From Limihaloglobus sulfuriphilus (lineage in GTDB: Bacteria; Planctomycetota; Phycisphaerae; Sedimentisphaerales; Sedimentisphaeraceae), in contig NZ_CP019646.1 in assembly GCF_001999965.1 (NCBI RefSeq), positions 3,038,001 through 3,102,000 of the forward strand: a stretch of DNA of 64,000 nt. The letters are read 5' to 3'. The notes under the pieces are model-generated. The model made no database searches, was not told where the DNA came from, and saw only the letters and a list, made by a program, of their open reading frames with translations. Below are positions 3,950 through 51,705 of this stretch, piece by piece. A program made the position numbers and the translations under genes. Position 1 is the first letter of the stretch, and each line of letters starts with the position of its first letter.

Positions 3950-4560
3950 GAATCCGCAGATTACGCAGATTGTCGCAGATTTTAAAAGTTAAGAGATATG
4001 TAGGGCAAGCGTCCCCGCTTGCCGTTTTAATGTCAACCGTCCTCGGTTGAGCTGCTGTGTCGGGCTGGAAGCCCGACCTACGAAGAATAAAAAAGTTAAG
4101 ATTCAGGCAACATCGCATGACGCAATCAGAGCCGTTCTTCACTTGTTTCACATTCTGATAATATTGATAAACAAGTGAAGAATTATGGAGCGGTTAGGTT
4201 AGATAAATCAGCTGTGTAGAGCAAATTCACGAATTTGCTCAGTTTAAAAAGTTAAGAGCTAAAAGTAATCAAATAGACATGATAAACAGGATTTGAATTT
4301 ACCATGAAGAGCATGAAGGACATGAAGAAAAGATATAATAAAAACTTCAATTTCTTCAATAACTTCATGGTTAATAAAAAATTAATCTTGTCCATCTTGT
4401 AAATCCTGTCTAATAGAATTTAAAAGTTAAGATTTACGTAGGGCAGGCGTCCCCGCTTGCCGTTTTAATGTCAACCGAGGACGGTTGAGCTACTGTGTCG
4501 GGCTGGAAGCCCGACCTACGAAATATAAATACTATGAGCGGAGCGAAGTTCTCAACTATT
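3950..4560. repeat. Hairpin-module repeat block A (between pyrK and pyrD)
   Basis: A chain of short inverted repeats. Members are GGCAAGCG/CGCTTGCC at 4004-4023; GTCAACCG/CGGTTGA at 4032-4050; GTCGGGCT/AGCCCGAC at 4059-4077; a CTTCACTTGTTT...AAACAAGTGAAG module at about 4130-4175; GAGCAAATTC/GAATTTGCTC at about 4218-4240; an ACCATGAAG...CTTCATGGT module from 4301; and second copies of the first three modules at 4442-4520. An A+T-rich linker close to TTTAAAAAGTTAAGA recurs between modules (about 3981, 4088, 4242 and 4421). I see no gene here. Confidence 0.92.
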
Positions 4561-4585
4561 AGTTAATAGTTATTAGTTTAATGAT

Positions 4586-5509
4586 ATGTCAGATATAAGT
4601 ATAGATTATTGCGGGCTTAAGCTGAAAAACCCGATATTTACCGCTTCGGGCACGTGCGGCTATTTCGACGAGCTTTCGGATTTTGTCGAGCTTGAGAGCC
4701 TCGGCGGGTTCATCACCAAGAGCATCTCTCTTGAGCCGCGAGAGGGTAACCCCCTGCCGCGGATTGTAGAGACCGATGCGGGGATGCTAAACGCCATCGG
4801 GCTGGCGAATATCGGGCTCAAAGAGTTCGTCGAAAAGAAGATACCGCTGATGAAAGACGCGGCGGTGCCGGTGTTTGTCAACCTGGCGGGCAAGACGATA
4901 GACGAATACGTCGAGGTTGCTTCCAGGCTCACCGGCTTCAATGAGATTACCGGCTTCGAGCTGAACATAAGCTGCCCCAACGTCAAGGCCGGCGGCATCA
5001 GCTTCGGCACGGACCCTGCGCAGATAGAAAAGATAACCGCCGCCGTCAAACACGTCTGCGGCGGCAAACCGCTGATCGTTAAGCTCACACCCTCGGTAAC
5101 GGATATCGCGGTAACCGCCCGGGCGGCGATAGAGGGCGGCGCCGACTCGCTGAGCCTGGTGAATACGTTTACCGCGATGGTGATCGACATCAGGACTAAA
5201 AAACCGGTGCTGGCGAACCGTACGGGCGGGCTGAGCGGGCCGGCGATAAAGCCGATAGCCGTTTATCTGGTCAACCGGGTGTATAACGAGGCGGCAAAAC
5301 CCGCCGGCATACCGGTGATGGGGCTTGGCGGAATCCGGACGGTCTCGGACGTGATCGAGTTCATGATCGCCGGCGCGTCGGTGGTCTCTGTGGGCACGGC
5401 GACCTTCACAAACCCGGCGGTTACACAACAGCTTGCCGAGGGGCTGGAGGAATACTGCCGGCGACACCGGATAAAAAAGTTGTCCGACATTACAGGCTCG
5501 CTCATGTGA
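4586..5509 (+). CDS. pyrD: Dihydroorotate dehydrogenase B, catalytic subunit PyrD (class 1B)
   Basis: 307-residue FMN TIM-barrel enzyme that oxidises dihydroorotate to orotate in pyrimidine synthesis. It has the class 1 motifs TASGTCGY near residue 20, NAIGLANIG near 70, and NISCPNVKAGG with the expected catalytic-base cysteine at residue 130. KLTPSVTD and the C-terminal GLGGIRT and GTATF phosphate-binding segments follow. The presence of pyrK upstream supports the NAD-linked heterotetramer. The gene is bracketed by near-identical repeat blocks in direct orientation (block A and block B, offset 1527 bp). The leader just upstream of the ATG at 4586 is A+T-rich repeat sequence with no strong ribosome-binding site. 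Confidence 0.95.
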   Translation: MSDISIDYCGLKLKNPIFTASGTCGYFDELSDFVELESLGGFITKSISLEPREGNPLPRIVETDAGMLNAIGLANIGLKEFVEKKIPLMKDAAVPVFVNLAGKTIDEYVEVASRLTGFNEITGFELNISCPNVKAGGISFGTDPAQIEKITAAVKHVCGGKPLIVKLTPSVTDIAVTARAAIEGGADSLSLVNTFTAMVIDIRTKKPVLANRTGGLSGPAIKPIAVYLVNRVYNEAAKPAGIPVMGLGGIRTVSDVIEFMIAGASVVSVGTATFTNPAVTQQLAEGLEEYCRRHRIKKLSDITGSLM

Positions 5510-6105
5510 AAAAGTTAAGAGATATGTAGGGCAGGCGTCCCCGCTTGCCATTTCAATGTCAACCGAGGACGGTTGACCTACTGTGTCGGGCTGGAAGCCC
5601 GACCTACGATGAGTTTAAAAGTTAAGATTCAGGCAATATCGCATGACGCAATCAGAGCCGTTCTTCACTTGTTTCACATTATGATAATATTGATAAACAA
5701 GTGAAGAATTATGGAGCGGTTAGTATAGACAAACGCAGCAGCGTAGAGCAAATTCACGAATTTGCTCAGTTTAAAAAGTTAAGAGCTAAAAGTAATCAAA
5801 TAGACATGATTAACAGGATTTGAATTTACCATGAAGAGCATGAAGGACATGAAGAAAAGATATAATAAAAACTTCAATTTCTTCAATAACTTCATGGTTA
5901 ATAAAAATTAATAGTTATGTAGCGTCCCCGCTTGCCGTTTCAATGTCAACCGAGGACGGTTGACCTACTTAATAAGAGTACACGCTTTAGCGTGCAAAAA
6001 CCCCGTCTTTCGGGCACCCCTCTAAAGAAGGGGAATTTAATTTGTGTCGGGCTGGAAGCCCGACCTACAAAAAAATCTGCGTAATCCGCGGATACAACTA
6101 AAATA
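5507..6105. repeat. Hairpin-module repeat block B (downstream of pyrD)
   Basis: The linker sequence begins at the pyrD stop codon itself. From there to about 5910 the block repeats block A in the same module order and orientation with few changes (the ACCATGAAG module starts at 5828 versus 4301). The remainder, 5910-6105, adds another partial GGCAAGCG module, a GTCAACCG hairpin, an ACACGCT...AGCGTG hairpin, a CCCGTCTTTCGGG hairpin and a GTCGGGCT hairpin, ending in the AATCTGCG-type module. I see no gene. Confidence 0.9.
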
Positions 6106-16595: not shown

Positions 16596-17282
16596 AATGA
16601 AATCCGCAGATTACGCAGATTTTCGCTGATTATTTTTCGTAGCTCTTAACTTTTTAAATCTTCGTAGGTCGATCCTTCCAGCCCGACACAAATTAAATCC
16701 CCCTCTCGTAGAGGGGTGCCCGAAAGACGGGGTTTTTGCACGCTAAAGCGTGTACTCTTACTAAGTAGGTCAACCGTCCTCGGTTGACATTGAAATGGCA
16801 AGCGGGGACGCTTGCCCTACATAACTATTAATTTTTTATTAACCATGAAGTTATTGAAGAAATTGAAGTTTTTATTATATCTTTTCTTCATGTCCTTCAT
16901 GCTCTTCATGGTAAATTCAAATCTTGTAAATCATGTCTATTTGGTTGCATTTATCTCTTAACTTTTTAAACTGAGCAAATTCGTGAATTTGCTCTACGCT
17001 GCTGCGTTTGTCTATACTAACCGCTCCATAATTCTTCACTTGTTTATCAATATTATCATAATGTGAAACAAGTGAAGAACGGCTCTGATTGCGTCATACG
17101 CTATTGCCTGAATCTTAACTTTTTAATTCATTAGACAGGATTACAGGATTAACAGGATTTTTATTTAGTTATTTTTAATCTTGTAAATCATGTTAATCAT
17201 GTCTAATTGGTTGTTCTTAACTTTTTTAATCTGCGATAATCTGCGTAATCTGCGGATTTCCTCAATTCGTAATTCGTAATTC
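16596..17282. repeat. Hairpin-module repeat block D (between the two pilX-like genes)
   Basis: Block in the opposite orientation to blocks A and B. In order: the AATCCGCAG module, a degenerate GTCGGGCT hairpin, CCCCTCT/AGAGGGG, CCCGAAAGACGGG, CACGCTAAAGCGTG, GTCAACCG/CGGTTGAC, GGCAAGCG/CGCTTGCC, the long ACCATGAAG...CTTCATGGT module, GAGCAAATTC/GAATTTGCTC, AAACAAGTGAAG-type, a GACAGGATT...AATCATGTC module and a final AATCTGCG module. The last bases are three degenerate AATTCGT heptamers running into the pilX-like paralogue 2 stop codon. TCTTAACTTTTTAAA-like linkers lie at about 16644, 16956, 17108 and 17216. Confidence 0.92.
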
Positions 17283-18712: not shown

Positions 18713-19224
18713 AATTAGGAATTAAGAATTAGGAATTAGGAATTGCGGAGTTCGCTTCGCTCACACTGTTATAATTCCGTATCTCTTAACTTTTTAAACC
18801 TTCGTAGGTCGATCCTTCCAGCCCGACACAAACGTAGCTCAACCGTCCTCGGTTGACATTGAAACGGCAAGCGGGGACGCTTGCCCTACATAGCTATTAA
18901 CTTTTTATTAACCATGAAGTTATTGAAGAAATTGAAGTTTTTATTATATGTCTTCTTCATGTCCTTCATGCTCTTCATGGTAAATTCAAATCATGTTAAT
19001 CATGTTAATCATGTCTATTTGATTACTTTTAGCTCTTAACTTTTTAAACTGAGCAAATTCGTGAATTTGTTCTACACCGCGGCATTTATCTATACTAACC
19101 GCTCCATAATTCTTCACTTGTTTATCAACATTATCAGAATGTGAAACAAGTGAAGAACGGCTCTGATTGCGTCATACGATATTTCTTAATTCTTAATTCT
19201 TAATTCCTAATTCCTAATTCTCAA
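18713..19224. repeat. Hairpin-module repeat block E (between pilX2-like and pilW-like genes)
   Basis: It starts with plus-strand TTARGAA heptamers (18714-18742), then a degenerate GTCGGGCT hairpin, GTCAACCG/CGGTTGAC, GGCAAGCG/CGCTTGCC, the ACCATGAAG module, the AATCATGTC module, GAGCAAATTC/GAATTTGTTC and the AAACAAGTGAAG module, in block D order and orientation but lacking the three hairpins after GTCGGGCT. It ends with six TTCTTAA/TTCCTAA-type heptamers (19183-19224) that stop exactly at the pilW-like stop codon at 19225. Confidence 0.9.
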
Positions 19225-20811: not shown

Positions 20812-21165
20812 AAGAAAATCCGCAGATTACGCAGATTTTCGCTGATTATTTTTTGTATCTATTAACTTTTTAAATTATTGTTTTACCATGAAGTTATTGA
20901 AGAAATTGAAGTTTTTATTATATGTCTTCTTGATTCCCTTCATGGCAGCTACAAATACGAAAATTCAAATCTCTACTATTATTCTGTCTTCACTTTTAAA
21001 GGCACTGAGAAAATTCGTGAGTTTTCTCTACAATAATGCTTATCTATTAACTTTTTAAACTCTTCGCAGTCCGGCCGCCCCGGACGACACAAAAAAGCGA
21101 CAGGCAGGGATGCCTGTCCTACGTAATTAAATCTGCGACAATCTGCGTAATCTGCGGATTTACCG
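20812..21165. repeat. Divergent hairpin-module block H
   Basis: Starts with the AATCCGCAG module and a shortened ACCATGAAG module, then diverged versions of the other hairpins: GAGAAAATTC/GAGTTTTCTC at 21007-21028, GTCCGG/CCGGAC at 21069-21085 and GACAGGCA/TGCCTGTC with loop GGGA at 21099-21118. It ends with an inverted AATCTGCG module. Most stem changes are paired, keeping the hairpins intact. Confidence 0.88.
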
Positions 21166-21170
21166 GATTC

Positions 21171-21608
21171 TCAATTCTCTCCCTCAAGTATCAGCTCATA
21201 TTCGCCGCTTGAGTAGAGGTTGAACTGTCCGGGCGTGCCGGGTGCGTTTTCCTTGGTAGATACGCAGACAATCTTGTACTCAAGCTCCGTGGCCGTCCAT
21301 ACAAGATCGGTGATCTGATAATCGCTCAGCGTGAAATACTTACCCTCGAGGTCTCCCGGCCCGAATCCAAGCGCCTTGACATCCGCCGGCGGGCCGCCCT
21401 CGCCGCACGTCTGGGCATAGTAGCCGCGCAGAGAGGTTGCGATCGCTCCGCAGCCGGTCTTGCCCTCCGTCCATTTGGCGGAATCGACAAAACGGGTTTG
21501 AAACGACATTCCGATAGCTGATAATATGGTGATTATCAACACTACCACCATCAGCTCTACAAGTGTAAAGCCCGAATTACGCCTGAATGTTACGCCTTCG
21601 CAAAACAT
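21171..21608 (-). CDS. Type IV pilin-like protein (major pilin candidate 1)
   Basis: 145 residues. A 12-residue head ends in G before FTLVELMVVVLIITILSAIGM, a textbook prepilin cleavage site with E5. The mature domain is short and has one pair of cysteines (near residues 56 and 72) plus another Cys near the end. It is a paralogue of the next gene upstream: both share AKW.EGK.G.GAIAT and LGF.GDL.GKYF. One of the two is likely the main pilus subunit. Confidence 0.85.
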   Translation of the reverse strand: MFCEGVTFRRNSGFTLVELMVVVLIITILSAIGMSFQTRFVDSAKWTEGKTGCGAIATSLRGYYAQTCGEGGPPADVKALGFGPGDLEGKYFTLSDYQITDLVWTATELEYKIVCVSTKENAPGTPGQFNLYSSGEYELILEGEN

Positions 21609-22157: not shown

Positions 22158-22248
22158 AATAAGTCTCCTATAAATGAAACACACTAAAATAAAAACCCTC
22201 CCCGCCGAACAGCCGGCAGGAAAACTAAAGAGCTTTTTAATTACTTTA

Positions 22249-23580
22249 ATTAGGAAAATCCGCAGATTACGCAGATTTTCGCTGATTATTTTCGTAGCTA
22301 TTTATTTTTTAATTCTTCGTAGGTCGGGCTTCCAGCCCGACACAAATTAAATTCCCCTCTCGTAGAGGGGTGCCCGAAAGACGGGTTTTTTGCACGCTAA
22401 AGCGTGTACTCTTACTAAGTAGGTCAACCGTCCTCGGTTGACATCGAAACCGCAAGCGGGGACGCTTGCCCTACGTAACTATTAATTTTTTATTAACCAT
22501 GAAGTTATTGAAGAAATTGAAGTTTGTATTATATCTTTTCTTCATGTCCTTCATGCTCTTCATGGTAAATTCAAATCCTGTTAATCATGTCTAATTATTT
22601 TTTAAAAGAGCATCCCGATTTATCGGGATTCAAACAAATTCGTAATTCTTAATTGTTAATTCTCTAATTTTAAAATAACGATCTATATAAAAATCAGTCT
22701 TGTCTTGGTTTTAATTAGGAAAATCCGCAGATTACGCAGATTTTCGCTGATTATTTTTCGTAGCTATTTATTTTTTAATTCTTCGCAGGTCGATCCTTCC
22801 AGCCCGACACAGTAGGTCAACCGTCCTCGGTTGACATTGAAATGGCAAGCGGGGACGCTTGCCCTACGTAACTATTAATTTTTTATTAACCATGAAGTTA
22901 TTGAAGAAATTGAAGTTTGTATTATATCTTTTCTTCATGTCCTTCATGCTCTTCATGGTAAATTCAAATCCTGTTAATCATGTCTAATTATTTTTTAAAA
23001 GAGCATCCCGATTTATCGGGATTCAAACAAATTCGTAATTCTTAATTGTTAATTCTCTAATTTTAAAATAACGATCTATATAAAAATCAGTCTTGTCTTG
23101 GTTTTAATTAGGAAAATCCGCAGATTACGCAGATTTTCGCTGATTATTTTCGTAGCTATTTATTTTTTAATTCTTCGTAGGTCGGGCTTCCAGCCCGACA
23201 CAGTAGGTCAACCGTCCTCGGTTGACATTGAAATGGCAAGCGGGGACGCTTGCCCTACTTAGCTTCTAATTATTTGACAGGATTTACAAGATAGATAAGA
23301 TTAATTTTTTATTAACCATGAAGTTATTGAAGAAATTGAAGTTTTTGTTATATCTTTTCTTCATGTCCTTCATGCTCTTCATGGTAAATTCAAATCCTGT
23401 TAATCATGTTAATCATGTCTATTTGATTACTTTTAGCTATTAACTTTTAAAACTGAGCAAATTCGTGAATTTGCTCTACACGGCTCTGATTGCGTCCTAC
23501 GCTATTGCCTTATGCCTATATCTTAACTTTTTAATCTGCGATAATCTGCGTAATCTGCGGATTTTCTCATTTCGTAATTG
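22249..23580. repeat. Tandem triplication of a hairpin-module block
   Basis: Three direct copies begin at 22255, 22720 and 23113 (AATCCGCAG module). The first two run to the same end, with an ATCCCGAT/ATCGGGAT hairpin (about 22610-22635 and 23003-23027) and TCAGTCTTGTCTTGGTTTTA. Copy 1 is longer by 72 bp, the segment with CCCCTCT/AGAGGGG, CCCGAAAGACGGG and CACGCTAAAGCGTG. Copy 3 diverges after about 23262 and continues with the ACCATGAAG, GAGCAAATTC and GGCTCTGATTGCGTC modules up to pilC. No gene is seen in these 1.4 kb. Confidence 0.95.
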
Positions 23581-33974: not shown

Positions 33975-36900
33975 ATGAAAACGAAAAGTCTTTCCTCATT
34001 ATTTGCTATTGTTTGTATAGCTGTTTCCACGCCATTATTCGCCGCGACTGTGATTCCGCTCAGTGACGCGGTAACCACCGATATTCCGGTTGTTTCCGGC
34101 GACGGGTTCTTCTGCGAATTGTTTTTGATCGGCGGAAACGGAACCCCAACTCCCTCAAGACTGGACGGTTATACGCCAGACGCTGACCTGCAGAGTCCGG
34201 TTATAAACTTCCCAAACCCGGGAAATGACGTATCAATCTCGTCTTCATTCACGGCGTTTTTCAGTGACACTGTCTATGCGCCCGAATCGGTTCAAAACCT
34301 TAACCCGTCCGGCTTTATCATGCGAATGACGTCCAACCTCAAAATCACCAGCGACCTTGATATGAACCCCGCGACCCCCGAGATTGATATCTCAATCCGC
34401 CAGGGCAGCGACGACGGACACTACCTGGTCATAGGCCAGCAGTTCCTCGGCTCCTCCGGCGAACACCCTTTCACGTGGTACAGCTACGACCTCTCCTTCG
34501 AAGGCGAGGGGTTATACCCGTACTACCAGCTCTTTGCCGCTAACAGCGTCGGCATATCCGGCGTTGAGCTGCAATGGAGTACCGCCACATCCGGCGGCTG
34601 GGCTGTTATTCCCCAGGAATACGCATTCCTCAGTACTGACGGCCAGTGTGAGCAGAAGGTATATTTCGACGAGCTATCCGAGGGCACAGCGGTTACCAAC
34701 CAGTACGAGTCACTCGGCGCGGTATTCGAGACACTAAGCGGCGGCATTGTCGCCACTTCCAGCAAACCGCTGGAGTTTGTGCCGGTCAGTGCAAGCAACG
34801 TTCTTGCCGACCCCGCAACAGAGCCCGCCGAGGAGGGGATTCTAAGCATAAAATTTGTTGACCCGGTCAGCCTCACACCGGCAACAACCGATTATTTCTC
34901 GACTTACGTAATTGACGCCGAATCAATCGGTGCAACTGTTACCGCTTTCGATATAGCCGGTGAGACTTTATATACCGAAAGCGTAACGGATAAAGGATAC
35001 GCCTCACAATATTTTGTCGAAATAGCCCAAAACGGCATTTACGAAGTTGTGATAACCCTGGGCAGCGGCGCGGACACCTCTGCGCTGGACAACATCTGCT
35101 GGGCGACACCAGACGAGATACTTCTGCCGGATATAGCACTTTCAAACCTCAACACTGACGTTGAGGGCTGGGGCGGTATGCCGATAAATGTATCTCTCGA
35201 TATAACCAACGCCGGCAACAGCATCCTCCAGCCGGGCTGGGACATAGACTTCTATGTATCTGACGATGAGACTTTTGACGAATTAACTGACGAATTCTGC
35301 GAGACTTACAACGTAGCAATACAGGTGGAAACCTCACAGACAGTCGATTTGAACGCAATAATAATGCTTCCAGATGATATTACCGGCGACAAATACCTCA
35401 TAGCGGTTGCCGATAAGAACGATACTGTCCCTGAATTCCCCGACGAGTATAACAACACGGCAGTATCCGCGGCAGTTATATCTACCGCGACCGACCATGT
35501 TCCGCCAAAAGTCATTTCACAGGATCCCGACGGGCTCACGCCCCAGGGCACCAGCTCTGTGACGGTTGAATTCTCAGAGACCATAGATGCGGAGACTTTC
35601 ACTGCCGCTGAGATAAGTATCACAGACCCTGATTCGGCAGCAGTCGCCGTGAATGACGTGCAGAACACCGAGGGAAACAAATGGAAGATTACTTTCGCAA
35701 ACTTAATGGAAACAGGCACTTATACGCTCACCATAAACTCCGGCGTTTCAGACCCTGCTGGCAATTATCTTGACGGCAACGGTGACGGAACCCCCAGCTC
35801 ATACACAGGAACTTTCGAGGTAACCACAGAACCCATTCAGTCAGACCTCAAAGACTGGACAAAACACGGTAACCCGAGTAACGGAAACTGGAACGTCGCT
35901 GCTGACGGGCTCAGCGTATTACAGACCGTTAACGGCCAGCCTACATTCTTTATCAGCGATTTTGACCTGACCGATTCGAGTTTCCAGGGCACATTCGCCG
36001 TTGAAACCGGCAGCGATGATGACTATATCGGCTTCGTTTTCGGCTTTAACGACAACGACAGCAACCCCTCGACACTTGACAGCCCGTTCTATCTCTTAAG
36101 CTGGAAACAGACCAACCAGTCTCATACGGGCTACGGCGAGGCAGGATTTAAGGTTGTTAAGGTTACTGACCCCAATAATTATAACTATTGGGACGTGGAA
36201 ACAACTTCTTACGGCACCGTTCTGCACCGCCTGACCGCAAGCGACAAGGGCTGGAAAGACTATGAAGTATATGAATTCTTCCTTTCTTATCAGCCGCTAA
36301 ACGGACAGATAAGGGTAATTATAAACCGCGAAAGCGATGGCGTAGAGCTGTACAACACCGGCCTGTTGACAGACCCCGAACCGCTCGGCACAGGTCGGGT
36401 AGGTTTTTATAACTATTCTCAGGCCCAGGTACGCTATGCCGGTTTCTCCTCCGCGGCACTTCAGCCGCCGGTAGCGGTGCCCGGAGAAGACTACTCCTTC
36501 AACGCGTCCGGAACCGATATTACGCTTGACGCTACAGGAAGTTACGACCAGGACTACCAAAATCTGGGCTTCGCGGCGATAGCTTCTCTGCAATGGGATA
36601 TCGGCAATGACGGTATTGGCGATGATGCCGGCCGAACTAACGGCAGCGAAACCCTCACACTCCAGCAGGCCAAAGATAAAGGCCTCGCGATCGGCAGCGA
36701 TATAGAAGTCGCCCTTACCGTAACAGATGCCGATGCCCTGACAGACACGGCAGTTACAACCGTAACCTATCAAAACACACCGCCCGCGGTAGATGCCGGT
36801 TCTGACGATTACGGAACGATATCCAGCGGTCAGAGTGTTGAGCTGCTCGGCAGCGTAACAGATGCTGATATCGCAGTCGATGTCGGCGATTCATTGGCGT

Positions 36901-39900
36901 ACGAATGGGACATCGCTCCCGCGGCAACTGCCGGTGAAATTGGAGACGGATTCAGCCTCGAACTTACGCCGAACTTAGATTATAACACGCTCTTCTCCCT
37001 GCTCGGCGCAGGCAGCGGCACACTATACCTCAACGCCGTGGACAGCAGCGGAACCGTCGTTACCGATTCGGCGGCGATTGCGGTCGAGGTTGTCAGCCTT
37101 ACCGTAACAACCGCGCACGGCACAGCCAACCCGCCAGAGGGGATAAATGTATTTATCCCCGATTCAGAGATAAGCTGCACTGTCAACTCACCGGTTACAC
37201 AGGGAACTACCCGTTACCTTTGCAGCGGCTGGACAGGCACCGGCAGCGTTCCGGCGACAGGTGCCGGAAATGACACGGGAATCTTCGTTCTCTCGCTTGA
37301 TTCCTCGATAACCTGGAACTGGGAAACAGAATACTATCTCGATACAGCCGCCGCAGGCGGAGGCAGCGTTGACGTGCCGGACGGCTGGCACCCGCAGGGT
37401 GATGTAATATCTATAAACGCCCAGGCTGACGCCTTCCACCATTTCACAGGCTTCAGCGGCGACACCGCCGGTGCGGTCATAGACGGCGGGCAGATAACGG
37501 TAACGATGGATCAGCCGCGTGCGATAACAGCCAACTTCGAGATTGATACATATACGGTTACATTCCAGGCCGGTGACCACGGCCAGATAACCGCCGGCTC
37601 ACCCCAGCAGGCCGTAGCACACGGCAGCTCGGCGGTACCGCCGACAATCACCGCGGATTCCGGCTGGGCATTTGTCGGCTGGGACGTTGATTATACCAAC
37701 ATAACCGCAGCAGTTACAATCACCGCACAGTACCTGCCGGCATATACAGTAACATTCCAGGCCGGCGACCACGGCGAGATAACCGGCGGCAGCGCCGTTC
37801 AGACAGTCCCCGAGGGCGGCAGCGCAACCGCTCCGACGGTAACAGCGATGAGCGGCTGGGTATTCACCGGCTGGGACGCTTCGTTAACCAACATTACATC
37901 TGATTTGACGGTAACAGCGCAGTACAGCGGAGCCGAACTCGGCCTGACGGTTGACGCCGAAGAGGTCCGCGAAAACACAACCACACCAAATATCAGATGC
38001 GTAGTAAGCCGCAACGGCTCATTCAACCAGAACCTGAGCGTATCTGTCATCTCTTCCGACACCTCAGAGATTACGGTGCCGGCTAATGTGACGATACCGG
38101 CAGGACAGACCAGCGCCGCGTTCTTCGCGACGGTACTTAACGACGGTCTGCTCGACGGCGACCAGACGGCGGTAATTACCGTTTCCGCCGGAGGCTATCT
38201 GCCCGCGGACGCATCGATACTGGTTATTGACACGGAGAAACCAACACTTTCGATTCAAATGCCGCAGATGGAAGCCTACGAGGGCGATATCTTCACCGCG
38301 ACCTTAAACAGCAACTATCCGGCAGTGGGTGATACTGTGGTTTACCTGCAGAAAACACCGGTTAGCCAGCTTGACATACCCGCCGCGGTAACGATTCTAG
38401 ACGGCGAGCAGTCGGCATTCTTTGACGTTGTTGTCATAAACGACGATGTCGCCGAACAGGACGGCAATGCCGAGATACGCGCGAACAACCCCTCTTATAA
38501 TCCGGCGACCGCGACACTGTTTGTATATGACGACGATGTACCCGGAGCGGTTCTGACGATAGCCCCGCAGGAGGCATCCGAGGGGGCGGGCTTCAACGCG
38601 GCTGTTGCAACCGTTACCAGAACAGAGCCCGACACGAGCAAACCTGTAAATATTCAGCTCACTGCCGACGTTCCCAACGCCCTGATACTCCCGACCGGAG
38701 TTTCCATACCGGCCGGCCAGACCTCTGCCAACTTTATGGTAGGAACGCTGGACAACAGCATGGTTGACGGCGAAAGAATCGTGATGATCAGCGGCAAGGT
38801 ACTCGTGGCATCGTGCGGCTGTGCTCTCGATCCCTCATCGGGCACAGCGATCGAGTCGGCCCTTACCATACTCGACGACGACGGCCCGACACTCAAGGTT
38901 ACGCCCGTTCCGGCGACCATGCCCGAGAACAAGCTCAATGCAGGCGTGCTGAGAATAACCCATAATCTCGTTGAGCTTACCGAAGATTTAACAGTCAACA
39001 TCTCGCATGACAGCGGTGATGAGATATCTGTTGCAGCAACTGCCGTTATACCGGCCGGAGAGCCGGGCGTTGACGTTCCGGTTCAGACACTCGATGACGG
39101 CATTGAAGACGGCAGCCAGATGGTATCTATATATGTTGACGCCGCGGGCTACACCTCCGGCACGGCATGGCTGCTGGTCAGTGACCAGAATCTGGCCGAC
39201 CTGTCTATATCTAACATAGAGATACTCTCTGATGTGGTTACAGGCGAGGATTTCGATTTCAGCTTTGACCTGGACAATATCGGCCTTTGGGACAGCCCGG
39301 CAGGTATCGCCGTCAAGGTTTACTACTCAACAAATAACAACATTTCAACCGATAAACTGATCAAGAGCTATGTAACTCTCAAAACCGTGCCTCTGGACGG
39401 CTCGATCACAGTAACGCTGACCGCACCTGCACCCGAGGTTACCGGAGACTACAAGCTCATAATCGTTGCCGATTCCGAGAAGATACTCGCAGAGCTCAAT
39501 GAAGGCAACAACACCGGCTATTCGGACAACTTCCTGATTCAGCCGGCATACAGCGCCGTCACACAGACCGATGTTGCAACGGCGATCGCCCCGCAGCCGA
39601 TACCGATCTACGGAACGGCGACAATGGCAGACGGGGTAACTCCGGCGGCGAATGTCCCGCTTGATGTTTACACGGTTGTCGGCGGCATGAGAAGAACCAT
39701 CTCCGCGGTAACAGATGACTACGGCGATTTCTACGCGGAGTTTGTTCCCCTGCCCGGCGAAAAGGGACACTACAGTCTCGGCGCATGTTATCCGGGAATG
39801 AACAGCTACGAAGAACAGGACTCATTCGAGCTGCTGGGAATTAAACGCACAACCAGCGCACACATCGTCTGGGACATGACGGTCGGCGACGTAAAAGACG

Positions 39901-42900
39901 GCGTAATCGGCATCACTAACCCCAGTTACGACAATCTTACCGGCGTTTCTGTTCAGGCGGTCAATAAACCGGATAACTGCCAGATTCAGCTGAACGCTCC
40001 ATCGTCTCTGCCCGGCGGCAGCACTGCCTCGATAAACTACACTGTAACGGCAACCGGCGTAAGCGAGGGCAACGACTATCACGTTATCACAGTTCGTGTA
40101 ACCTCCGCAGAGGGTGTTACCTTCGATATTCCGTGCTACTACTTCTCTGAAAGCGTCAAGGGATACCTCAAGGCCGAACCGACTACACTGAGCACGACGA
40201 TGAACCGCATTGAGCCGCGGCTTGTAGAATTCAAGATACGCAACGACGGCAGCGGCGAAAGCGGCATGATTACAATCGATGTGCCGGCGGCAAGCTGGAT
40301 TAGGCTGATAAGCCCCAAATATGTAGAATCAATTCCCGGCGGCGGCTCTACAACGGCGGTAATTGAACTGTTCGCAGACGATTCGGTACCGTTCAACGCA
40401 CCGATAAACGGCTCTATCGCTATCAACGCGGATAACGCCAACAGCGTTATCCTGCCGTTCAGCTTCGAGGCTGTCTCATCAGAAACCGGCAGCATACTCA
40501 TAGACGTTGTCGATGAATACACCTACTACGTTGAAGGCGAGCCGCATCTCGAAGGAGCCCAGGTCAAGATAAAGAACCCATACACCGGCGAGCTGCTCCA
40601 CGAGGGCCTGACTGATGTAAACGGTATTTATCAGAGTCCCGAGCTGCCGATAGGCAAATACAGCGTCTCTGTTACAGCAGACAAGCACGCCGGCTGGCAG
40701 AACTTCATCGAAGTTGTCCCCGGAACCGTAACGGACGAGCTTGTATTCCTGCAGTACCAGTCGATAACCTATACATGGGATGTCAAACGCACCGAGATAG
40801 AGGATCAGTACGACGTTGAGCTGATTGTTGATTTTGAGACAAACGTTCCGGCACCGGTAATCACTATTCAGGCGCCTTCAGAAGTTCCGCAGCTCAACTA
40901 CGGCGAGGAATACATCTTTAACGTCGTTGTTACCAACCACGGCCTGATAAACGCCCTGAATGTTGAGCTTACACTGCCGACTGTCGAGACGTATCTCTTT
41001 GAGGCACTGGTAACTGACATTCCCGTACTGCCGGCCAAGAGCAATATCGTCGTTCCGGTACGCATGTCCAGAGTTGCAAGCGATATGAAGATGGCAACTC
41101 CGGAAGACTATATGCCCTGTACCATGGCGATACTGGCGGCGATGGAATATCTCTGCGGTCCCGAATACAGAAATGTGTATGAATCCTCCAACAATATACG
41201 CTTCCTCGGCCATCTCTGCGACCTGCTGAGCATGTTAGGCGGATCAATCGGCGGCGGCACAGGCGGCGGAACCAGCGGCGGAACCCCATCCCGCGGCGGC
41301 GGAACCGGCACGGCATCGGGCGGCTATTCAAATCCGACTGTCGGCAACACTATCGACGGCTGCGAGGCGATAAAGTGTATCGACTCACTGCTGGGCCTCA
41401 ATCCGTTTATAGGCGCCGGCGGCACAGGTGTCGGCATTGGCAGCAATCTTGCCAGCGGCAACTACGGCGGAGCCGCATGGGAGGGAACTAAACCGTTTAT
41501 ACCGCATTACGATAAACTCGAAGCCCTGAAAAACTGCCTTGCCATGAAGAGCTCTAAAGAAAGACTCGAAAAGGCACTCAAGGCGGCAGGAGCCTCGGAT
41601 ATTGAACAGAGCATTATCGACGCCGAAAAGATAGTTGACGCTATGATAGCGATGCGGGAGCTGCAATTCTACATCGTCGGCACGGATGCCTGGGAAGATG
41701 AGCTCTTTGACGGGTTCCTTGAACTGCTTTCCGGCTCTATGGATCCGGTGACATTTATCATCCCTCCGGAAAATGAAGGCGATCTTATTTCCTATGCCGA
41801 GCTTTCAACAACCGTTTCCGCCGCGGACGTGGCATATACCATCGAAAGGTGGAACAGAAGTGTTGAGTACTGGAATCTTGGCTACGAAAACGCCTTAGAC
41901 GTTCCGGCAGGCCTCAATGATGATTTCATCGAACCGGATGTAATGGAACAGATTATGCAGCCGGTTAATGCTGCCGACCAGTACGCCGTGAGCCGCGGTT
42001 TTGCAGGCCTGGCGGACATGGAAGAGACGCAGCTGATTTATATACGCGACTATGTTGAGCAGGGCACCGGCAACGTCTGCGCGGTGGTATCACTTAGGAT
42101 AAACCAGAGGATCACGATAACCCGCGAGGCATTCGAGGGAACACTGAGCCTTTACAACGGAAACCTGACAACCGATATGACCGATATTCAGCTCGACCTT
42201 GTGGTCAGAGATGAGGACGGCAATATCAGCACAGACCTGTTCGAGATATCGACACAATCGCTCGATGTCATGACCGGCATCGACGGCACAGGCACCCTGG
42301 CACCGGACGCCGAAGGCAGCGCGGTGGTACTGTTTATACCTGAATACGGCGCAGCACCGGAATTCGCCAAGACCTACTATTTCGGCGGTATCCTCTCCTA
42401 CACCGACCCGTTCAGCGGTGAGCATGTCGAGGTGGACCTGTTCCCGGTAGCTCTCGAGGTTCAGCCAAGCCCGCAGCTGTATCTGGACTACTTCCTCCAG
42501 CGCGATGTCTATGCTGATGATCCGTTTACGGATATCGTCGAGCCGATACTGCCGGCAGAGATGGCGGTTCTCGTGGTCAACAAGGGCTACGGCGTTGCCA
42601 AGAACTTCCGGATAGACTCGGCACAGCCGGAGATATTCGAGAACGAGAAGGGCCTGATGATTGATTTTGCCCTGCTCGATTACAATCTTGATGGTGCGGC
42701 CCTTAACGGCCTGCCCTCAGAGGACGGGCTCTCCCAGGTCAACCTCGGAGATATAGAGGCCCAAAGCAGCGCGGTCGCGCAGTGGTGGCTGACCTCGACG
42801 CTCCAGGGGCACTTTATCGGAATGCAGGCCAGCTTTGTCCATCTAAACAGCTCGGGCAACCCGGATATCAGCCTTATAAAAGAGGTTGATATACACGAGC

Positions 42901-44192
42901 TGATACGCAGTGTCGTTGCCGACGGCGATGAGCTGCCGGACTTCCTGGTGACAGAGCTCAACGTTAATGACCTGCCCGACACTATATACTTCTCCGACGG
43001 ACAGGTTGCAGATGTGGCACAGGTTCAAGGCACCGCCGACAACTTCGTCCCGGGCATCGTATCCACGGTTGATATTACCGTCACGGCAAACGCCGGCTGG
43101 CAGTATATCTGGCTGCCGGACCCGGGCAGCGGCGATTTTGAGATCGTCGGCGTTACAAGAAGCGACGGCAGTGAACTGCCGCTGCGGAACTGCTGGCTGA
43201 CCGACCGGACAATGCCCGACGGAGCAGATACAATCTATGAAGACAAACTCCACATATTCGACGGCTTCCCGGAAGCGGGAACCGAGGTTTACACCATCGA
43301 GTTGATCCAGAAAGACGCAAACCCGCCGGAGGTTTCAGAATTCGCAGGCGTAGAGGACAACGAAATCGTTAATGTAATGCCCTCGATAAATGTCGTATTC
43401 AGTGAGCCGATCGATCCGGCAACGTTCAGCTATCATGACCTGATGCTGCGTTTCCAGGGCCAGCTAAAACAGCTTAGCCCCGTTGTCATAACCCAGATCG
43501 ATGATGTTACTTTCAACCTCGACCTGAGCGGCGTTGATTTCGGCGACGGCTATTACCTGCTGACGGTACAGGCCGCCGGGATCAAAGACACATTCGGCAA
43601 CTCCGGTGTGGCAGGACGCGAGATCGGCTGGTCGCTGCTGGGCAATACAGAAGTCAACCCTGTTGGCATTGTCTCGTGGGTACTGGTTGATAAGGTTCGC
43701 TCCGGAAGGACAACCTACGACTACATCTTCGCCGCGAGACTTCGCAACCTGATGGGTGTTGACGTGAGCAATTTCACCGCGGATATGGTACTTACCACGT
43801 CCAACGCAGAACTTATCGACGGCAGTATCTCGATCGCCTCGATACCGGCGGATTCAATAGTAACCGCCGAGACAGATACGATAGCGCTGCGGGTGGATAT
43901 GACCACGAATCTGCCAACGACGGCACTTAACGGCCAGATGTTCTATGACACTGCAACCGAGCCCGGCCAATCGTTCGACTTCACCAGCTACCTGCTGCTT
44001 GAGAGCAACCGCGCAGCAGGCGATGTTAACGGTGATAAGCGGGTTGATATTGACGACCTGTTCATCTTCGGCAATGACTGGCTCAAGGCCGGCTCCGCGG
44101 CTGATATTATGCCCGCGCCCAACGGTGACGGGATTGTCAACCTCTGGGATTACGCCGTACTGGCGAAAAACTGGCAGATAATATTTGACTGA
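33975..44192 (+). CDS. Giant multidomain secreted protein with C-terminal dockerin
   Basis: 3405 residues. Signal peptide 1-24; CARDB-like domain about 385-500; Ig-like domain with PPKVISQDPDG at 506-617; a thrombospondin-C/lectin-like sandwich about 625-832; PKD-like region to about 1040; InlB-type repeats (FQAGDHGQITAGS at 1196, FQAGDHGEITGGS at 1260). Then Calx-beta-like repeats 1321-1735; CARDB 1741-1855; carboxypeptidase-regulatory-like domains near 1880 and 2170; a Gly/Thr-rich linker 2423-2451; a second PPEV-type Ig domain near 3117; and a type I dockerin-like tail (DVNGDKRVDIDDL and PNGDGIVNLWDYAVL, about 3347-3400) with two calcium-binding loops. No catalytic domain was recognised. 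It is likely an extracellular scaffold or adhesin. Domain limits are approximate. Confidence 0.88.
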   Translation: MKTKSLSSLFAIVCIAVSTPLFAATVIPLSDAVTTDIPVVSGDGFFCELFLIGGNGTPTPSRLDGYTPDADLQSPVINFPNPGNDVSISSSFTAFFSDTVYAPESVQNLNPSGFIMRMTSNLKITSDLDMNPATPEIDISIRQGSDDGHYLVIGQQFLGSSGEHPFTWYSYDLSFEGEGLYPYYQLFAANSVGISGVELQWSTATSGGWAVIPQEYAFLSTDGQCEQKVYFDELSEGTAVTNQYESLGAVFETLSGGIVATSSKPLEFVPVSASNVLADPATEPAEEGILSIKFVDPVSLTPATTDYFSTYVIDAESIGATVTAFDIAGETLYTESVTDKGYASQYFVEIAQNGIYEVVITLGSGADTSALDNICWATPDEILLPDIALSNLNTDVEGWGGMPINVSLDITNAGNSILQPGWDIDFYVSDDETFDELTDEFCETYNVAIQVETSQTVDLNAIIMLPDDITGDKYLIAVADKNDTVPEFPDEYNNTAVSAAVISTATDHVPPKVISQDPDGLTPQGTSSVTVEFSETIDAETFTAAEISITDPDSAAVAVNDVQNTEGNKWKITFANLMETGTYTLTINSGVSDPAGNYLDGNGDGTPSSYTGTFEVTTEPIQSDLKDWTKHGNPSNGNWNVAADGLSVLQTVNGQPTFFISDFDLTDSSFQGTFAVETGSDDDYIGFVFGFNDNDSNPSTLDSPFYLLSWKQTNQSHTGYGEAGFKVVKVTDPNNYNYWDVETTSYGTVLHRLTASDKGWKDYEVYEFFLSYQPLNGQIRVIINRESDGVELYNTGLLTDPEPLGTGRVGFYNYSQAQVRYAGFSSAALQPPVAVPGEDYSFNASGTDITLDATGSYDQDYQNLGFAAIASLQWDIGNDGIGDDAGRTNGSETLTLQQAKDKGLAIGSDIEVALTVTDADALTDTAVTTVTYQNTPPAVDAGSDDYGTISSGQSVELLGSVTDADIAVDVGDSLAYEWDIAPAATAGEIGDGFSLELTPNLDYNTLFSLLGAGSGTLYLNAVDSSGTVVTDSAAIAVEVVSLTVTTAHGTANPPEGINVFIPDSEISCTVNSPVTQGTTRYLCSGWTGTGSVPATGAGNDTGIFVLSLDSSITWNWETEYYLDTAAAGGGSVDVPDGWHPQGDVISINAQADAFHHFTGFSGDTAGAVIDGGQITVTMDQPRAITANFEIDTYTVTFQAGDHGQITAGSPQQAVAHGSSAVPPTITADSGWAFVGWDVDYTNITAAVTITAQYLPAYTVTFQAGDHGEITGGSAVQTVPEGGSATAPTVTAMSGWVFTGWDASLTNITSDLTVTAQYSGAELGLTVDAEEVRENTTTPNIRCVVSRNGSFNQNLSVSVISSDTSEITVPANVTIPAGQTSAAFFATVLNDGLLDGDQTAVITVSAGGYLPADASILVIDTEKPTLSIQMPQMEAYEGDIFTATLNSNYPAVGDTVVYLQKTPVSQLDIPAAVTILDGEQSAFFDVVVINDDVAEQDGNAEIRANNPSYNPATATLFVYDDDVPGAVLTIAPQEASEGAGFNAAVATVTRTEPDTSKPVNIQLTADVPNALILPTGVSIPAGQTSANFMVGTLDNSMVDGERIVMISGKVLVASCGCALDPSSGTAIESALTILDDDGPTLKVTPVPATMPENKLNAGVLRITHNLVELTEDLTVNISHDSGDEISVAATAVIPAGEPGVDVPVQTLDDGIEDGSQMVSIYVDAAGYTSGTAWLLVSDQNLADLSISNIEILSDVVTGEDFDFSFDLDNIGLWDSPAGIAVKVYYSTNNNISTDKLIKSYVTLKTVPLDGSITVTLTAPAPEVTGDYKLIIVADSEKILAELNEGNNTGYSDNFLIQPAYSAVTQTDVATAIAPQPIPIYGTATMADGVTPAANVPLDVYTVVGGMRRTISAVTDDYGDFYAEFVPLPGEKGHYSLGACYPGMNSYEEQDSFELLGIKRTTSAHIVWDMTVGDVKDGVIGITNPSYDNLTGVSVQAVNKPDNCQIQLNAPSSLPGGSTASINYTVTATGVSEGNDYHVITVRVTSAEGVTFDIPCYYFSESVKGYLKAEPTTLSTTMNRIEPRLVEFKIRNDGSGESGMITIDVPAASWIRLISPKYVESIPGGGSTTAVIELFADDSVPFNAPINGSIAINADNANSVILPFSFEAVSSETGSILIDVVDEYTYYVEGEPHLEGAQVKIKNPYTGELLHEGLTDVNGIYQSPELPIGKYSVSVTADKHAGWQNFIEVVPGTVTDELVFLQYQSITYTWDVKRTEIEDQYDVELIVDFETNVPAPVITIQAPSEVPQLNYGEEYIFNVVVTNHGLINALNVELTLPTVETYLFEALVTDIPVLPAKSNIVVPVRMSRVASDMKMATPEDYMPCTMAILAAMEYLCGPEYRNVYESSNNIRFLGHLCDLLSMLGGSIGGGTGGGTSGGTPSRGGGTGTASGGYSNPTVGNTIDGCEAIKCIDSLLGLNPFIGAGGTGVGIGSNLASGNYGGAAWEGTKPFIPHYDKLEALKNCLAMKSSKERLEKALKAAGASDIEQSIIDAEKIVDAMIAMRELQFYIVGTDAWEDELFDGFLELLSGSMDPVTFIIPPENEGDLISYAELSTTVSAADVAYTIERWNRSVEYWNLGYENALDVPAGLNDDFIEPDVMEQIMQPVNAADQYAVSRGFAGLADMEETQLIYIRDYVEQGTGNVCAVVSLRINQRITITREAFEGTLSLYNGNLTTDMTDIQLDLVVRDEDGNISTDLFEISTQSLDVMTGIDGTGTLAPDAEGSAVVLFIPEYGAAPEFAKTYYFGGILSYTDPFSGEHVEVDLFPVALEVQPSPQLYLDYFLQRDVYADDPFTDIVEPILPAEMAVLVVNKGYGVAKNFRIDSAQPEIFENEKGLMIDFALLDYNLDGAALNGLPSEDGLSQVNLGDIEAQSSAVAQWWLTSTLQGHFIGMQASFVHLNSSGNPDISLIKEVDIHELIRSVVADGDELPDFLVTELNVNDLPDTIYFSDGQVADVAQVQGTADNFVPGIVSTVDITVTANAGWQYIWLPDPGSGDFEIVGVTRSDGSELPLRNCWLTDRTMPDGADTIYEDKLHIFDGFPEAGTEVYTIELIQKDANPPEVSEFAGVEDNEIVNVMPSINVVFSEPIDPATFSYHDLMLRFQGQLKQLSPVVITQIDDVTFNLDLSGVDFGDGYYLLTVQAAGIKDTFGNSGVAGREIGWSLLGNTEVNPVGIVSWVLVDKVRSGRTTYDYIFAARLRNLMGVDVSNFTADMVLTTSNAELIDGSISIASIPADSIVTAETDTIALRVDMTTNLPTTALNGQMFYDTATEPGQSFDFTSYLLLESNRAAGDVNGDKRVDIDDLFIFGNDWLKAGSAADIMPAPNGDGIVNLWDYAVLAKNWQIIFD

Positions 44193-50869: not shown

Positions 50870-51705
50870 ACACAAGCACCAACGGTGCGAAATATCATAG
50901 CATGGGGCAACGCCCTATGTTCAAACACGGAGGATACCCCCCTCGTAGGTCGGGCTTCCAGCCCGACACAAAAACACCGCCGGCGGCGGTGCGGGGGAGG
51001 GGGAATTGAGGGGATTGATTGGCCGCACAGGTTCCCAGGGCGTTGCCCCGGGCTAAGCTATCCAAGCCCTTCAGGCTTGAGAATATGCCGCGGACGTAGC
51101 TTAACGTTAAGATTATGCAGTTTTTCAGGATTGCACAAGATGTTGCGCATCAGCACCAAAGGTGCGAAATATCATACGATCTTGCTAACACAAGCACCAA
51201 AGGTGCGAAAGATCTTAGCATGGGGCAACGCCCTATGTGTATAGGCGGATCGCCTTTTCCCCCTCGCTCTGCCCCGCACCGCCGCCGGCGGTGCGGGGCA
51301 GGGGAAAATTGAGGGGATTGATTGGCCGCACAGTTTCCCAGGGCGTTGCCCTAGGCTAAGCTATCCAAGCCCTTCAGGCTTGAGAATATGCCGCGGACGT
51401 AGCTTAACGTTAAGATTATGCAGTTTTTCAGGATTGCACAAGGTGTTGCGAATCAGCACCAAAGGTGCGAAATATCATACGATCTTGCTAACACAAGCAC
51501 CAAAGGTGCGAAATATCTTAGCATGGGGCAACGCCCTATGTGTATAGGCGGATCGCCTTTTCCCCCTCGCTCTGCCCCGCACCGCCGGCGGCGGTGCGGG
51601 GAGAGGGAAAATTGAGGGGATTGATTGGCGGCACAGGTTCCCAGGGCGTTGCCCCGGGCTAAGCTATCCAAGCCCTTCAGGCTTGAGGTATAATGAAATC
51701 CTTCC
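50870..51705. repeat. Second palindrome-rich repeat family with 303-bp tandem period
   Basis: A unit starting GAGGGGATTGATTGG occurs at 51008, 51311 and 51614, exactly 303 bp apart. The two complete units differ at only a few sites. Each unit contains GCACC/GGTGC hairpins, a GGGGCAACGCCC and its inverted partner GGGCGTTGCCCC, AAGCC/GGCTT, CTTAACGTTAAG, and GCACCGCC/GGCGGTGC. The upstream partial copy contains a GTCGGGCT/AGCCCGAC hairpin shared with the first family (about 50946). No gene seen between 50851 and 51743. Confidence 0.93.

Follow-up and report, generated by a model that had tools for sequence, protein, structure and literature searches.

Paired stem changes between hairpins of Limihaloglobus sulfuriphilus very probably reflect families of GTAG-tagged REP elements

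The window, i.e., the whole stretch of 64,000 nucleotides of the Limihaloglobus sulfuriphilus genome analyzed here, contains a composite element, block H, just downstream of a minus-strand pilin-like gene (21171-21608). Its edges are formed by two CGCAGATTACGCAGATT elements (20816-20847 and 21130-21161), which constitute an inverted repeat (32 nt, 94%), and this element is present in 16 exact 17-nt copies in a 707-kb sample of the genome. The sample represents about 18% of the 3.87-Mb single-contig genome and was read as stretches, about half of which had been selected because they surround hairpins or Y1 genes that were already known; the remaining genome was covered by pattern and similarity searches. 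Block H and its three hairpins are arranged as follows:

20815..21162, no strand assigned: composite block H holding the three hairpins, with the inverted pair of CGCAGATTACGCAGATT elements as edges
21008..21031, minus strand: REP of family F2, GTAG-AGAAAACT-CACG-AATTTTCT, one base from the consensus AGAAAATT (13 exact F2 copies in the 707-kb sample)
21066..21089, plus strand: putative degenerate partner REP with a GCAG head, recognized by alignment with four blocks near 3.56 Mb
21099..21122, minus strand: block-H hairpin, REP of family D, GTAG-GACAGGCA-TCCC-TGCCTGTC, an exact family copy

The original prediction had listed base changes on both arms of these hairpins, and all of the changes as well as the three hairpins are indeed present. 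Positions 21099-21118 read GACAGGCA/GGGA/TGCCTGTC followed by CTAC, and a comparison with GGCAAGCG/GGGA/CGCTTGCC revealed differences at stem pairs 2, 5 and 8, all three of which are compensated. Folded as single-stranded DNA together with its GTAG head, this hairpin reaches -8.7 kcal/mol (z -5.5), and none of 200 shuffled sequences was as good. At positions 21007-21028, GAGAAAATTC GT GAGTTTTCTC differs from GAGCAAATTC by one compensated pair and one wobble, which is T-G on the plus strand and corresponds to a C-A mismatch on the minus strand, the strand with the GTAG. The third hairpin has a GTCCGG/CCGGAC stem (arms at 21069-21074 and 21080-21085) with a 5-nt loop, folds weakly (z -2.35) and is found as a single copy in the 707-kb sample. 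An Rfam scan returned no family matches at the hairpins.

Using block H as query against the whole genome, we identified four partial relatives near 3.56 Mb. The hairpins of these blocks follow in the same order as in block H, with GACAGGCA, then GTCGGCCA (GTCGGGCT in one block) and then AGAAAATT in three of the four. Block H belongs to this second block type, GACAGGCA plus GTCGGCCA plus AGAAAATT, which is repeated near 3.56 Mb. The REP at 21066..21089 occupies the slot of family E (GTCGGCCA) or A (GTCGGGCT) in the homologous blocks, and the alignment identifies the hairpin at 21069-21085 as the degenerate counterpart of GTCGGCCA/GTCGGGCT. Read literally, the original prediction implies that compensatory mutations in place turned the GGCAAGCG block of the window into block H. 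The head, the loop and the overall order of the hairpins are alike in both blocks, but block H aligns lengthwise with the blocks at 3.56 Mb in identical order, has the same 8-nt gap past the first hairpin apart from a small shift, and carries a stem that is one of five identical copies; the four additional ones match the family D hairpin letter for letter and are located at 3,562,592-3,571,610 of the genome. We consider an origin by in-place mutation extremely improbable, and on the basis of the alignment we rejected that block H derives from the neighboring block by mutation. Because block H aligns lengthwise with the 3.56-Mb blocks, the comparison of GGCAAGCG with block H is a comparison between two REP families.

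The other hairpins of the window share the same plan, consisting of GTAG, an 8-bp stem and a loop of 3-4 nt. That these hairpins are no product of chance is confirmed by the head sequence: within the window, 26 perfect 8-bp hairpins are preceded by GTAG, compared with seven for the next best tetranucleotide. In the 707 kb it heads 104 perfect 8-bp hairpins, the next best tetranucleotide 18 and the other 255 on average 0.8; as hairpin-rich stretches are over-represented in the sample, the number of 104 gauges head preference and not genome-wide density. The unit has a length of 23-24 nt (GTAG, 8-bp stem and short loop), with the loops TCC, TCCC or TCCT, and CACG or TGC in two further families. 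These elements display the features of GTAG-class REPs, namely an unpaired GTAG head, a stem of about 6-9 bp with a short loop, dispersed high copy number and inverted dimers. In total, 149 non-overlapping copies were found in the 707 kb, and the search of the whole genome yielded 61 F copies and 42 copies of the GC-rich pattern. The families are discrete and most of them have several to many identical copies:

Family A: stem GTCGGGCT, loop TCC
Family B: stem GTCAACCG, loop TCCT
Family C: stem GGCAAGCG, loop TCCC
Family D: stem GACAGGCA, loop TCCC
Family E: stem GTCGGCCA, loop TCCC
Families F1-F3 (AT-rich): stems AGCAAATT, AGAAAATT and AGAGAATT, loop CACG
Family G (AT-rich): stem AGACGYAT, loop TGC

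Outside of block H, the following elements were located in the window:

4000..6068, no strand assigned: REP cluster with families C, B, A and F1
16765..16997, no strand assigned: B-C heterodimer and F1 REP
18834..19075, no strand assigned: B-C heterodimer and degenerate F1 REP
22319..22341, plus strand: family A REP, GTAG-GTCGGGCT-TCC-AGCCCGAC (17 exact A copies in the sample)
22419..22474, no strand assigned: head-to-head B-C heterodimer with B (GTCAACCG) on the plus strand, an 8-nt spacer and C (GGCAAGCG) on the minus strand; a 56-nt unit recurring through the genome
22812..22867, no strand assigned: B-C heterodimer of the second tandem block
23177..23258, no strand assigned: family A REP (GTCGGGCT/TCC), then B-C heterodimer
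23456..23479, minus strand: family F1 REP, GTAG-AGCAAATT-CACG-AATTTGCT (16 exact F1 copies in the sample)

A frequent arrangement is the head-to-head dimer with a spacer of exactly 8 nt, which was counted 25 times in the 707-kb sample (21 B-C, three D-E and one D-A). The B-C dimers occur within several different flanks. Shared flanks indicate that the copy number results in part from the duplication of larger blocks and not from movement of single REPs. The region 22245-23500 of the window is composed of mosaic blocks of about 390 bp in tandem, in which REPs are mixed with CGCAGATTACGCAGATT, AAGTTATTGAAGAAATTGAAG and CTTCATGTCCTTCATG elements, all of which recur elsewhere in the genome. Two further features of the window are a pair of matches to the Acido-Lenti-1 RNA above the Rfam gathering score on the minus strand (51193-51237 and 51496-51540) and a plus-strand open frame of 3405 aa (33975-44192).

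In the head-to-head dimers with short spacer, stem position 2 is T in one partner and G or A in the other. This holds for the 25 dimers described here, for eight of eight in the related genome G052 and for several in G012 (counted by eye), although these dimers are non-independent copies and represent about eight distinct dimer types. Tentatively, such a rule might keep the two arms of a dimer folding separately and prevent them from forming a single long hairpin, so that paired divergence would be driven by the avoidance of arm-to-arm pairing (or by a marking of left and right end) during copying as single-stranded DNA, with several REP families coexisting without a resident cognate enzyme; we regard this as a rather speculative possibility.

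To describe the paired changes genome-wide, we used the 42 copies of the GC-rich pattern, in which five stem pairs were left free. Of these 210 cells, 203 are Watson-Crick pairs, four are G-T and three are unpaired, and the reversed-pattern control of this search had no matches. For 26 distinct copies drawn from the genome itself and from relatives of the same order, 97.1% of the pair cells are paired compared with 79.9% after shuffling and at most 46.6% in slid structures. The covariation score of these copies is 0.515 compared with 0.177 for shuffled copies and at most 0.18 for slid partners. Since the search pattern had fixed three of the eight pairs, these are uninformative; the remaining five all vary in paired fashion. 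For family F, the genome-wide search left two pairs free, and both are Watson-Crick in 59 of 61 copies, with three alternative types. A large excess of paired changes over the expectation for unlinked changes is in agreement with the original prediction, both genome-wide and among relatives, and the covariation is real, mainly between multi-copy families.

A different picture emerges within the families, keeping in mind that the family boundaries were set by us, so that the split into within- and between-family changes is approximate. Here, 91 of the 149 copies match their consensus exactly, and among the departures 42 one-sided breaks and 13 one-sided wobbles (together 55) stand against 11 paired changes. 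In families A-E, five paired changes were found where about 0.09 would be expected if changes were independent, but one-sided changes are more frequent (27). The original prediction took paired changes as the signature of a structure under selection. The covariation part of this argument holds, whereas the numbers of broken and wobble copies speak against a maintenance of each resident hairpin. Most simply, folding would be tested at copying and not during residence in the genome.

We identified five Y1_Tnp genes in the genome, one of which encodes an IS200-type transposase, and the remaining four give matches to the NCBIfam RAYT model that stay below the cut-off. None of these five genes has hairpins on both sides, the arrangement that defines a REPtron, and a search around the hairpins of this genome revealed no cognate RAYT. 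Two F hairpins lie next to the IS200-type gene, both on the same side, and the RAYT-like genes L002, L003 and L004 are accompanied by short inverted repeats of a non-REP type; the terminal inverted repeats of L004, AAATAGGGGACAGTTACC, contain GGGGACAG. Using L003 as query in one contig scan, two relatives were found, one in a Phycisphaerae bin and one in a Planctomycetota bin. Relatives of the same order do contain RAYT genes with hairpins of this kind (GTAG, an 8-bp stem and a TC-loop) on either side, and the stem is specific for the locus:

L084: flanking stem GACAAGCA
L086: flanking stem CTCAAGCA
L088: flanking stems GACAGGCA and GTCAGGCA
L099: flanking stem CTCAGGCA
L100: flanking stems GTCGTGCG and GACGAGCG

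The stem of block H, GACAGGCA, is among those that flank a RAYT gene (L088 of relative G035, with the loop TCT). The hairpin-flanked RAYTs of the relatives carry the motifs LPHW...NHVH...HSWK; this type is absent from the genome of the window, where the best match (E 7e-4) is to a different RAYT. We found no RAYT flanked by families F or G, family F is absent from 39 relatives, and both families are provisionally placed among the REPs by anatomy alone. Families A-E most likely represent REPs without a resident partner gene, whose enzyme would have been lost or be unlinked. At another locus of a relative, L081, the 3' end of a further RAYT-type frame overlaps with a GTAG hairpin, by which the frame seems to be truncated.

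RAYT domains are also present inside host proteins. In 17 genomes of the same order (families f7 and f6), a RAYT domain is located in frame within valyl-tRNA synthetase (L101-L105, L107, L109-L117, L119 and L120), always at the same place just ahead of VTVATTRPETMLGDT. NHVH is present in 17 of 17 and the tyrosine motif YxxxNP, searched by pattern, in 16 of 17, and the REP-like peptides HGQDARAT, GTGFQPV and AGVPPA are encoded around the domain. The C-terminal domain of the synthetase lies in the same open frame of 1200-1360 aa in 13 genomes, and a search of the 17 genomes found a single such domain in 16; the corresponding frames have 1006 aa in the genome of the window and 985 aa in G037. A literature search found no paper on a RAYT domain within valyl-tRNA synthetase. 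The same domain is present in frame within an NAD synthetase (L124) and within two Type ISP C-terminal specificity domain proteins (L108 and L118).

Taken together, the hairpins very probably represent GTAG-tagged REP elements that a RAYT, a relative of HUH/Y1 transposases, has spread in the form of folded single-stranded DNA, leaving behind families of stems. The RAYT would read GTAG and the loop and require a paired stem. As the stem would serve mainly as a shape, new variants that are able to fold could be copied and spread, whereas copies with a broken stem would be left uncopied and decay in place. Over time, this would result in multi-copy families with a common head and loop and with stems that are set apart by paired changes. 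Experiments with a REP of Stenotrophomonas maltophilia with a perfect 8-bp stem are in line with these assumptions: replacing bases of the stem by the complementary ones was without drastic effect; changes of the loop or GTAG, on the other hand, impaired or abolished cleavage, and mismatches in the stem reduced or nearly abolished it (PMC8266576). An enzyme that needs loop, GTAG and a paired stem but tolerates complementary change would account for the constant head and loop and the paired stem divergence seen here. We infer copying as single-stranded DNA in this lineage, and the hairpins of this genome are best regarded as a relic or orphan population of REPs, in which folding is relevant when the elements are copied as single-stranded DNA.

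It is also conceivable that the paired changes are mutational and not selected, as template switching during replication could copy one arm of a palindrome onto the other in a single event. Such events can yield perfect stems and multi-base compensatory changes (PMC8794818), the short perfect palindromes are suitable substrates, and family differences of two or three pairs with few intermediates fit single events. However, many copies carry an uncorrected one-sided change (e.g., CTCAACCG versus CGGTTGAC, six times), and the constant GTAG and loop as well as the link to RAYT are left unexplained, so that we consider this possible but rather doubtful. Both ideas are compatible, and within the REP scenario template switching may be what generates new stems.

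The original prediction had left open whether the structures act as RNA or as extruded single-stranded DNA. A role as RNA structure, i.e., as terminators or mRNA-stabilizing elements selected at each locus, could draw on the position of block H behind the pilin-like gene, where the GCTTTTTTG after the hairpin, with its T run on the strand of that gene, creates a terminator-like site, and on the number of such sites in the region (13 versus 3.8 expected). Nevertheless, the other four D copies are followed by CGCCTTTG or CGCTATTG and lack a T run, which among the D copies is present in block H only, and for the whole hairpin class the terminator reading was rejected on these sister copies. In addition, the conserved GTAG head serves no function in termination, the decay of resident copies is mostly one-sided, and G-T pairs account for just four of the 210 free cells in the whole-genome set. 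We therefore regard selection as RNA as unlikely, although block H may be a single case co-opted as a local terminator. Single-stranded DNA is favored over RNA by the anatomy of the hairpins and the RAYT linkage in relatives. The REP reading has a more general implication, because paired stem changes can be misread: covariation between copies may reflect a filter at the time of copying and not selection on resident structures, and counting one-sided decay within families separates the two. Furthermore, pairs of REPs and RAYTs within one bacterial order, probably of the Planctomycetota, with varied stems and constant head and loop, are useful for asking what a RAYT reads.

Three known systems are related to the elements described here. 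The GGGGACAG repeat of L004 fits the GGGGWSAS motif given for TIRtrons/TIRYTs in PMC3733652, but the L004 repeats are distinct from hairpins of the block-H type. With the TnpA-REP/RAYT REPtrons of group 3, e.g., of S. maltophilia (PMC8266576), the elements share the perfect 8-bp stem, a 3-nt loop and the GTAG head, a Y1/HUH gene flanked by its own REPs, and the combination of tolerated complementary stem changes with a critical loop and GTAG. The difference is that the RAYTs with LPHW...NHVH...HSWK and flanking hairpins belong to the relatives, and the genome of the window is without that type. An anatomical counterpart is found in the GTAG-tagged REP super-family, published with 24 families (Di Nocera, De Gregorio and Rocco, 2013, PMC3733652). 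As a difference, the short dimers with 8-nt spacer are all heterodimers here, and the likeness described is one of anatomy. In that publication, complementary alternatives of stem bases, heterodimers in head-to-head orientation and a link to RAYTs are described for these families, also in Planctomycetes. In common with the elements of L. sulfuriphilus are the GTAG head, the 6-9 bp stem with a short loop, sub-families with alternative complementary stems, head-to-head dimers and heterodimers and a mostly intergenic location, as known from Planctomycetes and Verrucomicrobia.
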